The position numbers were made by a program, and so were the translations under genes. Shown here one piece after another: positions 27,605 through 48,827 of a stretch of 64,000 nucleotides of DNA. Positions within the stretch are counted from its first letter, which is position 1. Each line of letters begins with the position of its first letter. The DNA is taken from positions 1,860,001 through 1,924,000 of the forward strand of contig NZ_CP102602.1 of assembly GCF_024707485.1 (NCBI RefSeq), given 5' to 3'. Origin of the DNA: Thermococcus thermotolerans (GTDB lineage: Archaea > Methanobacteriota_B > Thermococci > Thermococcales > Thermococcaceae). Below the pieces are notes generated by a model, which saw nothing but the letters and a program-made list of their open reading frames with translations, was not told the origin of the DNA and searched no databases.

Positions 27605-27906
27605 TGGTTGCCATGCAAAAAGTTTTGCCATTTTCATGTCTAAAATTGTGTATTTTAACGGCGTCTTTTGACGGTTTCTTTTTCAAAAATCTGGCCTCGG
27701 AAGGATTTTGCAAAAATTTTTCACTGCTGGGGTTCACCCCTATTGGGTGGAGCGCCCGAATAGGGCGCGACAAAACCCGGGCGCCAAGACGGCGGCGTCG
27801 GGGGGACAGGGTGCAAAGCACCCACTCATGAACCCCGCCCTCCAGCCCGGGTCACAAAAAGGTGCGCTCCCGAGGAAACGCCGAAAGGCGGACCCCTCGG
27901 GGGTAA
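27605..27906 (+). other. rRNA operon upstream region and leader
   Basis: About 300 bases without a gene. A small hairpin (GCAAAA-AG-TTTTGC, near 27616-27629) could end the preceding transcript. An AT-rich GCAAAAATTTTTC near 27709 is the best TATA-like candidate for the rRNA promoter. After it the sequence becomes GC rich, with local hairpins, and enters the 16S processing stem. I see no clear consensus TATA box. Confidence 0.4.
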
Positions 27907-27942
27907 GGCAGGCCCGACATCCCGACTAAACCCCGGACGGAT
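27907..27942 (+). other. 16S processing stem, left arm with BHB
   Basis: Bases 27907-27923 and 27931-27942 are fully complementary to 29509-29525 and 29490-29501. Between them GACT (27924-27927) pairs with GGTC (29502-29505, one G-U pair). The 3-base bulges are AAA (27928-27930) and TAA (29506-29508). This is a canonical 3-4-3 bulge-helix-bulge, the EndA cleavage site. Confidence 0.85.
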
Positions 27943-27992
27943 ATTTGGTACTTCCCCTTGAGGGAAGTCCCACCGGCCGTACTCCTTGCTCA

Positions 27993-29478
<1,486 letters not shown>

Positions 29479-29489
29479 ATCGCCGGAAA

Positions 29490-29525
29490 ATCCGTCCGGG
29501 GGGTCTAAGGGATGTCGGGCCTGCC
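29490..29525 (+). other. 16S processing stem, right arm with BHB
   Basis: This is the complementary arm to 27907-27942. The 17-bp outer helix and 12-bp inner helix are both perfect. EndA cutting in both bulges would release the 16S precursor and, after ligation, a circular pre-16S as known for archaea. Confidence 0.85.
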
Positions 29526-29531
29526 ATCCGT

Positions 29532-29608
29532 GGGCCGGTAGCTCAGCCTGGGAGAGCGTCGGCTTTGCAAGCCGAAGGCCCCGGGTTCGAATCCCGGCCG
29601 GTCCACCA
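29532..29608 (+). tRNA. tRNA-Ala(TGC)
   Basis: The cloverleaf is complete: the 7-bp acceptor GGGCCGG/CCGGTCC has one G-U pair, the anticodon TGC sits in the loop of GGCTT-TGC-AAGCC, the T-loop is GGTTCGAATCC, and the CCA end is encoded. Its place between 16S and 23S is the normal euryarchaeal arrangement. There is no intron. Confidence 0.97.
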
Positions 29609-29677
29609 CGAAGAGGTGCACATCCCGAGCACGGCTCGGGGTGGAAGGGTCCTAGGCCCCGAACAGGGGTCACGATG

Positions 29678-29714
29678 AGGACCGTGCACAGGCCGATTGA
29701 CCCAAAAAATGCCC
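29678..29714 (+). other. 23S processing stem, left arm with BHB
   Basis: Bases 29678-29702 pair perfectly (25 bp) with 32785-32809. CAAA (29703-29706) pairs with TTTG (32778-32781), and the 3-base bulges are AAA (29707-29709) and ATA (32782-32784). TGCCC then continues the inner stem with GGGCA. Confidence 0.85.
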
Positions 29715-29727
29715 AGCCCCCTGAGTA

Positions 29728-32762
<3,035 letters not shown>

Positions 32763-44685: not shown

Positions 44686-45810
44686 ATGCGGAAGAGGCTT
44701 TTGCTGTTAGTCTCGCTCGGCTGGATATTCAACTACGCCCACAGGATGGCAATCCCTCCCCTCATTCCGATGATAAAGGCCGAGCTGGGAATAAACAACG
44801 CCGAGGCCGGGCTTTTGATGACCGCCCTTCTGCTCCCCTACGCCATCATTCAGGTTCCGGCCGGATACATCGGCGACCGCTTTGGGAGGAAGAGGCTCCT
44901 TGTTCTCAGCATAATCGGCTACTCGCTCTCGTCCGCACTCATAATCTTTGCCCGGGAATACTGGGAGCTTCTCGCTGTTAGGGCTCTTTACGGCCTTTTC
45001 TCGGGTCTGTATTATGCCCCTGCAACAGCGCTGATAAGCGAGGTCTATCGGGAGAGAAAGGGCTCCGCTTTGGGTGTCTTTATGGTCGGCCCACCAGTCG
45101 GGAGCGGGATAGCGCCCATCATAGCCGTCCCCATCGCCCTGAGACTTGAATGGCGCTACGCCTTTCTGGCGCTCTCGGCAATGAGCCTGGCGACTGGAAT
45201 AACCCTTGCCTTCGCGGTCAGGGGCGAGGTCTCAAAGCCGTCTCGCGTTAGGTTCTCGATTCCCCGGAACGTTTTTCTGCTCAGTGCGGCGAACTTCATA
45301 GTCCTTGCCGCGTTCTTTGGGCTTCTCACCTTCCTGGTCTCTTTCCTGGTGAACGCAGGCGTTTCCTTCGAAACGGCCTCTTGGCTGTTCTCCCTTCTCT
45401 CAGTCATAGGGATCGCAGGTTCTCTCTTCGGCGGCGGCCTCTACGACAGAATCGGGAGGAGAAGTATAGCGGTGGTCTTCGGTCTAAACGCATTCCTCAC
45501 GCTGATCCTTGCCCTAACGGCCTCTCCGTGGGTGATAATTCCCCTGGGGCTGACGTTCTACTCCGTGGGGGCAATAGTTACGGCCTACACGTCGGAAAAG
45601 GCCACCGGAGAGAACCTCGGTTCGGTTATGGGTTTCGTCAACATGGTTGGGTTCTTTGGCGCAACCGTCGGTCCGTACTTCGTTGGACTCCTCATCGACG
45701 GCTTTGGTTATGAGAGGGCGTTTCTATCGATACCCCTGATGTACCTGATGGCGTGGGGGATAATCCGGGTGGAAGAAAAGCTGGAAAAGAGAGAGATCAG
45801 CCGTACATGA
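44686..45810 (+). CDS. MFS transporter, probably leaderless
   Basis: The 374-residue protein has about 12 membrane helices and the MFS motif [13 protein letters not shown] between helices 2 and 3, with a second [12 protein letters not shown] in the other half. Substrate is unknown. A TATA-like ACTTTTAAACG stands 26 bp before the ATG, and no ribosome binding site is present, so a leaderless mRNA is expected. It overlaps pan tail to tail by 14 bases. Confidence 0.87.
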
Positions 45811-46993
45811 CCTCATGCATGGCTATCTGCTGGGCAAGCCTTTGCTCTGCCCCGAAAACTTTCTCTATTGCCTTGAGGAAGTCGTCCTGGGTGATGTACT
45901 CACGCCTCGCCCTTATGGCGAACATCCCTGCCTCGGTGGCTATGGCCTTCAGGTCTGCTCCGCTGGCCCCCTCCGTCATCTCGGCTATGACGCGCAGGTC
46001 GACGTCCCTGAGGTTCATCTTCCTCGTGTGGACCTTTAGTATCTCCAGCCTGCCCTTGAAGTCCGGAAGCGGAACCTCAATAAGTCTGTCGAAGCGTCCG
46101 GGCCTGAGCAGTGCCGGGTCAAGGATGTCCGGCCTGTTGGTGGCGGCTATTACCTTAACGTTGCCCCTTGGATCGAAGCCGTCCATTTCCGCTAAAAGTT
46201 GCATCAGCGTTCTGTTGACTTCCCTCTCCCCACCGGTCGTCTCGTCCATTCTCTTCGCCCCGATGGCGTCTATCTCGTCAATGAATATTATGGTGGGTGC
46301 CTTCTCCTTGGCCAGCTCGAAGAGCTCGTGAACCAGCCTTGCCCCTTCGCCTATGAACTTCCTCACCAGCTCGCTGCCGACGACCTTTATGAACGTGGCG
46401 TTGACCTCGTGGGCGAGGGCCTTCGCCATGAGTGTCTTTCCACATCCAGGAGGACCGTAGAGGAGAACTCCCTTCGGCGGTTCAATCCCCACCTTTTCAA
46501 AGAGCTCTGGGTGCCTGAGCGGAAGCTCGACAGCCTCTCTCAACTCCTGGAGCTGCTTGTCTAGGCCGCCAATATCTTTGTAGCTGACCTCGGGTCTCTC
46601 GATGACTTCAAAGCCCAGAACACTCGGGTCCTTCTCGCTGGGAAGGAGTTCAACTATGGCCATGGTTCTCTGATCGAGGGCAACCCTCGAACCTGGTTTC
46701 AGTCTGTCCCTCTCTATCCAGGGTGCAATCCGGACTACAAAGCGCGGTCCGTTGTAGTTCTGGACTATCGCCCTGTCCTCGTCGAGTATCTCAAGGAGCA
46801 TACCCGCAAAGGCTGGCGGCTGTCTCAGCCGGGACATCTCCATTCTCATGCGTGAGAGTTCCCTCTCCAGTCTCTCCTTGTCGGCTTCCAGGGTCCTCAC
46901 CTGGAGTTCAAGCTGCCTGATCCTCCTCTTGAGGTACAGGATGTAATCATCGTACTCGTTCGATGGTTTAACGCCAACATCTTCAACGCTCAT
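45797..46993 (-). CDS. pan: PAN proteasome-activating nucleotidase
   Basis: PAN is the hexameric AAA ATPase that unfolds substrates for the archaeal 20S proteasome. The 398-residue protein has an N-terminal coiled coil (residues about 12-60), an OB domain, Walker A GPPGCGKT, Walker B IIFIDEID, the second region of homology with arginine fingers (RPGRFDR), and the C-terminal gate-opening HbYX-like tail MYG. The ATG at 46993 follows GAGGTGA; the upstream GTG is inside this site. Promoter GAGTTAAAAAGG lies about 45 bp upstream. Confidence 0.96.
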
Positions 46994-47212
46994 AATTTTC
47001 ACCTCTCACAATCCAGACTGTGTAGAAGGGCCTTTTTAACTCTATCTTTTCCATGTATTCTTTGGGGCACCCAGCTTTATATACCTTTGGTACGAGATGT
47101 GCGGATTTTTTCTGACTTAACTTTGAAGTAATGGATGCGTGGTTTATTTGCGAAATTCTTATTAACTTCGAGTACCAATTATAAGGGGGTTATAGCACAG
47201 GGGTGGGATGTA

Positions 47213-47962
47213 ATGAGAGTCGAGATAAAGTTCAGGCCCGCGAAGGAGGGCACAATTCTTCCCTTCAATTATAACTACGATGTTTACGTTCAGCTTCTTG
47301 AGAAAATGGCCATAGTATCTCCTGAGATTGCCCACGAGGCTGAGGTAAGTCACGTTGACTACTTTACCTTCTCCCGTATAATGGTCAGAAAGCGTGAGCT
47401 GATTCCGGATAGGGGGATAAGGGTTCTCTCCGATGACGTTTCCCTCTATGTCTCTTCATCTTCCAGCGAGCTCATAAAGGCCGTTGTGGAGGGATTCATA
47501 GACAGCCCTGTTCTCCAGCTGGGTGATTCGGCTTTCATAGCGGACGATATAAAGATACTCAAGGAACCCCGCATAAAGGACGGGGCGCTCTTCTCAACGC
47601 TTAGTCCGATAATGGTCAGGACGGTCAAGCTCAGCGGCAACCGGATGAAGATATGGGATCTCTACCCAAGCGAGGAGGCCTTCTTTGACAAGCTACGCAA
47701 GGTAATGCTGATGAGATATTCGGCAATAATGGGCACGATGCCCGAGGAGAAGGACTTTGCCATTGACGTTATCAAGTTTAAGCCCGTCAGGATTCTCGTC
47801 AGAGACACCTACTACCGCGGCTCCCTCATGATATTCCGCTATCACGGCTCTCCGGAGATAGCCCGCTTCGGCTACGAGAACGGCTTTGGAGAAAAGACCC
47901 GCTACGGCTTTGGAATGGTCAAAGTAATTGATGAAGAGCCCAAACGAGAAGGCCAAGAGTGA
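47213..47962 (+). CDS. cas6: Cas6-family CRISPR RNA endoribonuclease, unlinked
   Basis: Cas6 cuts CRISPR repeat RNA. The 249-residue protein has two ferredoxin-like halves and the diagnostic C-terminal Gly-rich loop GFGEKTRYGFGMVKV. Compared from memory with P. furiosus Cas6, the His of AHEAEV matches the catalytic His position, while the general-base Tyr and Lys positions are not clearly kept, so activity is uncertain. No other cas gene and no repeat array lie within this window. The ATG at 47213 follows GGTGGG, with a TTATAAGGG box upstream. It overlaps the next gene tail to tail by 44 bases. Confidence 0.88.
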   Translation: MRVEIKFRPAKEGTILPFNYNYDVYVQLLEKMAIVSPEIAHEAEVSHVDYFTFSRIMVRKRELIPDRGIRVLSDDVSLYVSSSSSELIKAVVEGFIDSPVLQLGDSAFIADDIKILKEPRIKDGALFSTLSPIMVRTVKLSGNRMKIWDLYPSEEAFFDKLRKVMLMRYSAIMGTMPEEKDFAIDVIKFKPVRILVRDTYYRGSLMIFRYHGSPEIARFGYENGFGEKTRYGFGMVKVIDEEPKREGQE

Positions 47963-48827
47963 GTTCGATCAGCCATACAATAGCCACAAGCTTGGGCTCG
48001 GTAACCCTGACTTTTCTCATTATTGTCCCCAAGAAGCTGGGATACGGTGGCGCCTGAAGCGTTCCGTCGGGCAGGATCCTCGTTCTTCCGTGCCTCCTCA
48101 CGCCGAAACGAACACCCGTTGCCTTTATGGTAAAATCAAGGAAATGGGGGAGTAATAGAAGCGCCGCATAGGCCTCTACCTTTCCGGTAATGGCAACTAG
48201 CCCTATGAGGGCGCCGAGACCGAGGGTTCCAGTATCGCCCGGAAAGACCCTCGCGGGATACCTGTTCCACCACAGAAAGCCCAACGCAGTTCCCATCCCG
48301 GTCAACGCAATGAGCCTGGCATTTCCATCGGTTATCAGGGCAAGGATTCCAAGGATTATAGCGGAAGTCCCTATCTCAAGTCCGTTGAATCCGGCAAGCA
48401 TGTTCACCAGGTTTGCCGAGCCGGTAACGAAGAGCACCGCGAAAACTGGATACAAAACCCCCAGGTTGAGGGTGTATCCGAAGATATCCACCTCCGGTGC
48501 GATGCCGAAAAACGCCACCGGGACTGAGACCAAGAGCGATAGAACGACCTTGTGGAGCTGTCTCAGGTTCGTCAGGTCGTCTATGATTCCAACGACTCCG
48601 AAGAGCAGGAAGACCGTTAGAACCCCCACGATTTTCTCATCCATGAAGGGTGAGAGCGCCAGGGGGATGGCGAGAAGAATCGCTATACCCCCCATCTCAG
48701 CCACTTCCGGCTGGTTCATCTTGTGGATGTCTCTCCCGATGATTCCAGCCCTTTTCATTCTTGTGGCGACGTAAGGGGTAAGGATGAGCGTTAGGGTTAA
48801 ACCTATAAGCGGAGCGGCCGCTATCAT
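47919..48827 (-). CDS. MraY/WecA/AglH-like phospho-sugar transferase
   Basis: The 302-residue membrane protein of about ten helices belongs to the UDP-HexNAc:polyprenol-phosphate HexNAc-1-phosphate transferase family. Visible motifs are GGIAILLAI near residue 46, GIIDDLTNLRQ (the DDxxN metal site, near 80), NLVNMLAGFNGLE near 140, FPGDTGTLGLGA near 195 and HFLDFTIK near 225. In archaea it starts the N-glycan by placing a HexNAc phosphate on dolichol phosphate. The neighbouring GT2 gene suggests a lipid-linked sugar locus. Confidence 0.88.
   Translation of the reverse strand: MIAAAPLIGLTLTLILTPYVATRMKRAGIIGRDIHKMNQPEVAEMGGIAILLAIPLALSPFMDEKIVGVLTVFLLFGVVGIIDDLTNLRQLHKVVLSLLVSVPVAFFGIAPEVDIFGYTLNLGVLYPVFAVLFVTGSANLVNMLAGFNGLEIGTSAIILGILALITDGNARLIALTGMGTALGFLWWNRYPARVFPGDTGTLGLGALIGLVAITGKVEAYAALLLLPHFLDFTIKATGVRFGVRRHGRTRILPDGTLQAPPYPSFLGTIMRKVRVTEPKLVAIVWLIELTLGLLVWALHQLL

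Follow-up and report, generated by a model that had tools for sequence, protein, structure and literature searches.

A Cas6nc-type paralog of Cas6 in Thermococcus thermotolerans, inherited vertically across the Thermococcaceae with loss of the known catalytic residues

The stretch of DNA analyzed here (the window) comprises 64,000 nucleotides, positions 1,860,001-1,924,000 of the single-contig 2.07 Mb genome of Thermococcus thermotolerans. On its forward strand, a real open reading frame runs from the ATG at window position 47213 through the stop codon at 47962 and encodes a 249-residue protein of the Cas6nc type. A Shine-Dalgarno-like GGGGTGG lies at 47200-47206, and 62 nt upstream of the ATG stands CGAAATTCTTATTAAC (47151-47166, forward strand), a BRE/TATA-like element whose sequence suggests a promoter role. 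Within the reading frame, codons 29-61 (47297-47395) correspond to the active-site region of Pyrococcus furiosus Cas6, the catalytic residues of which we take to be numbered Tyr31, His46, and Lys52, consistent with the PDB chain numbering, and codons 224-235 (47882-47917) encode the Gly-rich loop GFGEKTRYGFGM. Both neighbors lie on the reverse strand. The divergent one (45797-47002) is a PAN-like AAA ATPase with Pfam AAA and proteasomal ATPase OB domains, presumably the proteasome-activating nucleotidase (PAN), and the convergent one (47919-48827) is a family 4 glycosyltransferase, the 3' end of which overlaps that of the paralog over 47919-47962. Elsewhere in the window, a single rRNA operon occupies 27752-32759, with a tRNA-Ala between the 16S and 23S genes and the Pab19 H/ACA RNA directly upstream of the 16S gene.

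Cas6 models from NCBIfam, Pfam, and PADLOC match the protein far above chance (TIGR01877, E 1.3e-42; PF01881, E 1.2e-27; PF21350, E 8.4e-15; PADLOC Cas6, E 1.1e-81), and the two RAMP domains and C-terminal Gly-rich loop that mark the Cas6 endoribonucleases are both present. The curated single-domain Pfam model PF10040, which describes a different Cas6 type, has no match in the Thermococcus genome. A chance match or a pseudogene is ruled out by these E-values together with the 89 intact orthologs described below. The nearest solved structures by sequence are 3ufc from P. furiosus (E 9.8e-97) and 3qjj/3qjp, the PH0350 protein of P. horikoshii (E 3.8e-90), with canonical Cas6 structures ranking well behind (E 2.7e-35 to 2.7e-29). 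An AlphaFold model built from 48 orthologs (mean pLDDT 93.1, pTM 0.88) gives the same order, with Z 36 against 3qjj and 3ufc and Z 29.4-29.9 against the canonical 3i4h, 5yi6, and 3pkm. On the strength of this gap in E-values and of Z 36 versus 29.5, the window protein is the Thermococcus ortholog of PfuCas6nc (3UFC) and PhCas6nc (3QJJ, PH0350), and not of canonical Cas6.

The Cas6nc family itself is already known, and this gene is one more member of it. PfuCas6nc, the Cas6 paralogous protein of P. furiosus and presumably locus tag PF0393, matches the window protein at 58% identity (rmsd 1.5 A, Z 36) and shows the identical loss of catalytic residues; it differs in species and gene neighborhood. 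PhCas6nc (3QJJ/3QJL/3QJP) is 56% identical, with an rmsd of 1.4-1.6 A. Crystal structures of Cas6nc proteins reportedly date from 2012. Canonical P. furiosus Cas6 (3I4H/3PKM) has two RAMP domains and the Gly-rich loop in common with the window protein, at ~31% identity and Z ~29.5, but it possesses Tyr31, His46, and Lys52, sits with CRISPR-cas genes, and cleaves repeats. Earlier publications name 3UFC the non-catalytic PfuCas6nc and call PhCas6nc an inactive Cas6 homolog, and PhCas6nc is there described as binding the 5' end of the CRISPR repeat in the cleft between its domains (PMC3727216), while RNA binding by the window protein is a prediction. No cellular role for Cas6nc is given in the accessible portions of the papers searched (PMC3727216, PMC3652601, PMC3150331, PMC5965380, PMC8616872, PMC12934983, PMC7694759).

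The loss of the known catalytic residues is plain from a MAFFT alignment of 89 intact paralogs with 59 canonical Thermococcaceae Cas6 copies. All 59 canonical copies carry Y, H, and K in the columns of Tyr31, His46, and Lys52, whereas none of the 89 paralogs has the respective residue in any of them. The paralogs have L (47), V (21), I (19), or M (2) in the Tyr31 column, E (61), Q (13), S (9), K (3), D (2), or R (1) in the His46 column, and D (80) or G (9) in the Lys52 column. Gaps may be placed otherwise: phmmer sets K31 and A43 opposite Tyr31 and His46, and BLASTP sets H41, present in 13 of 89 paralogs, opposite the catalytic His. H47 is found in 63 of 89, but in a column other than that of the catalytic His. 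The original prediction had read the Gly-rich loop as the mark of Cas6, the Tyr and Lys positions as changed, and a non-catalytic form like that of P. horikoshii as one possible identity, all of which is borne out; its further supposition that a His is kept fails in the His46 column of every paralog, H41 being confined to a small minority.

The window holds no direct-repeat family of at least 22 bases within 400 bases, TRF returns one row of 1.9 copies, and PADLOC finds no Cas match among the 10 neighboring proteins. Whole-genome matches for Cas1, DevR/Cas7, a second Cas6, and the CRISPR repeat all fall outside. This second Cas6, canonical in type and ~31% identical to the window protein, lies at 909,628-910,356 of the host genome, where it heads a type I-B set (Cas8b, Cas7b, Cas5b, Cas3b, and Cas1 by PADLOC) with which the DevR/Cas7 and Cas1 matches coincide; 29 repeats follow at 919,874-921,771. 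The locus is ~985 kb from the window gene. The sole repeats of the host type (919.9-921.8 kb) stand beside their own Cas6, and a CRISPR locus near the window is rejected on the whole-genome Cas and repeat positions; none was found just outside the window either, which is where one could have refuted the original prediction. An unlinked, diverged Cas6 with neither repeats nor other cas genes in 64 kb was what had been predicted. The lack of linkage is confirmed; the gene is not a lone Cas6, however, being a family-wide paralog with a canonical Cas6 elsewhere in the genome. That observation is therefore partly confirmed, and the interpretation placed on it partly supported.

Here, too, the relatives agree: among 95 paralog loci queried with the host genome's type I-B proteins (flanks of median ~3.5 kb, the shortest 88 nt), none has a Cas1, 3, 4, 5, 7, or 8 homolog or the repeat 5' motif near the paralog. 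The glycosyltransferase is convergent with the paralog at 78 of 89 loci, and the PAN-like ATPase is divergent at 55, codirectional downstream at 8, and out of reach or absent at 26. Judged by eye, the divergent neighbor in genus g4 resembles ribosomal protein S15, and the genes upstream of the paralog in genus g3 resemble an aconitase-X type pair.

The promoter-like element is a property of the family as well. CGAAANNCTTATTAA occurs 56-87 nt upstream of the paralogs, without mismatch at 62 of 89 loci and with at most one mismatch at 76, and is missing at the nine g3 loci and some others. Across the 2.07 Mb of the host genome it matches perfectly only upstream of the paralog itself, with 13 further matches at one mismatch versus 2 for a reversed control, figures that leave a shared regulon unsupported. 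An unbiased 15-mer scan, in which genome sets differ and the blocks of divergent gene pairs may overlap, finds the best upstream block kept in 75/89 cases for the paralog, 57/65 for PAN, 57/79 for the glycosyltransferase, 54/71 for the next gene, 18/21 for MFS, 14/32 for RIO, and 24/58 for canonical cas6. The element upstream of the paralog is therefore conserved about as well as that of a housekeeping neighbor, and not exceptionally.

A survey of 94 Thermococcaceae genomes located the paralog in 90. Its frame is intact in 89 of these, and in 72 of the 74 high-quality genomes. It went unseen in four assemblies, G054 (53% complete), G059 (90%), G088 (75%), and G091 (80%). The genome with a broken copy, G026, carries it in two pieces on opposite strands ~23 kb apart (L091, C1:1258622-1259065; L092, C1:1235386-1235694), as an inversion would leave it, and has another Cas6 and ~100 repeats; the break suggests that the paralog may be dispensable. 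A further distant Cas6 heads a type III-like gene set in G026 and G031 (L208 and L209; PF01881, 58-60 bits). Outside the family, a search of 115 genomes of the phylum gave matches in five, all weaker than the family's own paralogs. Copies in G114, G105, and G102 are canonical in type, standing beside cas-like genes with Tyr, His, and Lys judged by eye to be in their proper positions, so that on these three spread beyond the family is rejected; the remaining weaker matches are in G095 and G101. All 25 loci from a scan of genome contigs carry the name Thermococcus or Thermococcales/Thermococci/Thermococcaceae, and the viral collection searched holds no copy.

Inheritance of the paralog in the Thermococcaceae is vertical and family-wide. 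A 62-row tree, built without the 3UFC and 3QJJ chains, resolves two clades, that of the paralogs with a support of 100/100 and that of the canonical copies with 99/100, with the exact root of the split unsure since long branches meet there. In Mantel tests, paralog distances follow those of the neighboring glycosyltransferase (rho 0.888, n=78) and of PAN (0.717, n=62), and those of canonical Cas6 follow them somewhat more weakly (0.775, n=49, and 0.483, n=41, respectively); no permutation out of 199 reached the observed value in any of the four comparisons. Slower protein evolution than in canonical Cas6 is not borne out: across the same 49 genomes the protein distances of paralog and canonical Cas6 are equal (0.294 and 0.294). 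What is new here is evidence that the Cas6nc family is ancient in the Thermococcaceae, has been kept vertically, and is not linked to a CRISPR locus.

Genomes poor in CRISPR genes offer a view of the paralog without its canonical relative. In eight of the high-quality genomes, just one protein matches as Cas6-type (G015, G020, G031, G039, G057, G058, G079, and G090). G031 proves with PF01881 to have a second, type-III-linked Cas6. G057 has Cas1 and Cas7, so that its canonical Cas6 probably lies in an assembly gap. G015 retains Cas1 and other remnants; there, Cas1 adjoins Cas2-, Cas4-, and HD-protein-like genes and repeats of another type, with no Cas6 nearby (L210, C1:524000-538000). The other five, G020, G039, G058, G079, and G090, gave no match to Cas1, DevR/Cas7, type III RAMP, or Cas10 in a search that left Cas3 aside, and the paralog is their sole PF01881 match. 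It is intact in all five, with 73 of 73 conserved positions in G039, G058, G079, and G090 and 70 of 73 in G020, two of whose three changes are common to its relative G072; comparison with the nearest relatives gives, where computable, a dN/dS of 0.011-0.085. Counted over all high-quality genomes, another Cas6 is missing in seven and the paralog is intact in 7/7, and each of the two without an intact copy of the paralog, G026 and G059, carries another Cas6.

These absences must be read with some care. Three of the five assemblies are drafts of many contigs, at most 99% complete, G020 being a single contig. Repeat-like sites are left in all (6 in G020, 11 in G058, 5 in G090, and 1 each in G039 and G079). 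They are array remnants rather than a conserved repeat-like RNA, and the solitary relics are degenerate in G039 (L188, C2:110849) and interrupted by an insertion in G079 (L190, C14:26338). Near-identical sisters of G079 and G090 have canonical Cas6, so the losses in the five may be recent; as they are undated, the intact paralogs support constraint after CRISPR loss without proving it. Survival of the paralog in these genomes nonetheless weakens, without excluding, the earlier idea that it serves distant arrays, and suggests that it may have an RNA-binding job outside CRISPR immunity. The original prediction's further option, processing of some other RNA, may still hold.

We therefore favor, at a rough probability of 55%, a reading in which Cas6 was duplicated, the split between paralog and canonical Cas6 predating the radiation of the family, and in which the duplicate lost its Tyr/His/Lys catalytic residues, kept the two-domain RAMP fold, the Gly-rich loop, and the platform for binding single-stranded RNA, and took up a role independent of CRISPR. 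The conserved use would then probably be the binding of cellular RNA, as chaperone or regulator, rather than CRISPR immunity. Fold, orthology, residue loss, vertical inheritance, the conserved gene-specific promoter-like element, and maintenance in CRISPR-poor genomes all speak for this account. Against it stand repeat binding by PhCas6nc, repeat matches in 88 of the 94 genomes, the possibly recent losses and residual repeat-like sites, the three draft assemblies, the G026 break, the equal protein distances, and a lower net charge than in canonical Cas6.

CRISPR-independent binding of single-stranded RNA is, on this evidence, the most likely role, and its main rival is that of a CRISPR accessory, which would act in trans on the repeats of pre-crRNA or crRNA, binding them and regulating, protecting, or competing with canonical Cas6 without cutting. 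The cleft of PhCas6nc, with its reported hold on the repeat 5' end (PMC3727216), the prevalence of repeats in the family, and the RNA-binding platform residues common to canonical Cas6 (both groups have the same fixed residue at 39 positions) would all suit such a partner. Against this role, the paralog persists intact in the five genomes without detected cas genes and in 7/7 without other Cas6, with G026 and G059 showing the opposite pattern; it is also unlinked to cas genes at all 95 loci under the type I-B queries, and its promoter-like conservation differs from that of canonical cas6 (75/89 vs 24/58). We regard the accessory role as possible, at well under even odds.

A nuclease with a remodeled active site is unlikely. 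K31, R55, R59, and R61, all inside the active-site region and invariant in 89/89 paralogs, would in that case cut non-repeat RNA, after the manner of two active Cas6 proteins of Sulfolobus solfataricus that PMC3727216 describes as lacking both general acid and general base. The Sulfolobus structures (4ILL, 3ZFV) do resemble the window protein in having a Cas6 fold without the canonical acid/base residues, but at a Z of only 13-14, and the Sulfolobus enzyme is active and dimeric; PhCas6nc and PfuCas6nc, by contrast, are described as inactive or non-catalytic. Moreover, R61 and K/R31 occur in canonical copies too, so that just R55 and R59 are new. These two belong, with R136 and K163, to the main contributors to a charge of +8 that the 21 differently fixed positions give the paralog. 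This is not an overall gain of positive charge, as the mean net charge of the whole protein is 3.3 for the paralog vs 8.5 for canonical Cas6, a lower value that does not favor stronger RNA binding. A relic persisting by chance under weak constraint, which the broken G026 copy and the unseen one in G059 (90% complete) might suggest, is very improbable given 89 intact ORFs, 59 columns that do not vary across 48 diverse sequences, and a median dN/dS of 0.093 (783 pairs), below the 0.135 (522 pairs) of canonical Cas6.

Taken to its full extent, the preferred reading of a CRISPR-independent RNA binder would have a CRISPR RNA-processing enzyme duplicated in the Thermococcaceae ancestor and domesticated as a housekeeping, non-cutting binder of single-stranded RNA, with its own conserved promoter and maintained independently of CRISPR; for this fuller account we would offer slightly less than even odds. 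Its CRISPR-free maintenance is testable in the genetically tractable Thermococcus kodakarensis. If the paralog is indeed maintained without CRISPR, it would represent a Cas protein that an entire family of archaea has turned to housekeeping RNA binding.
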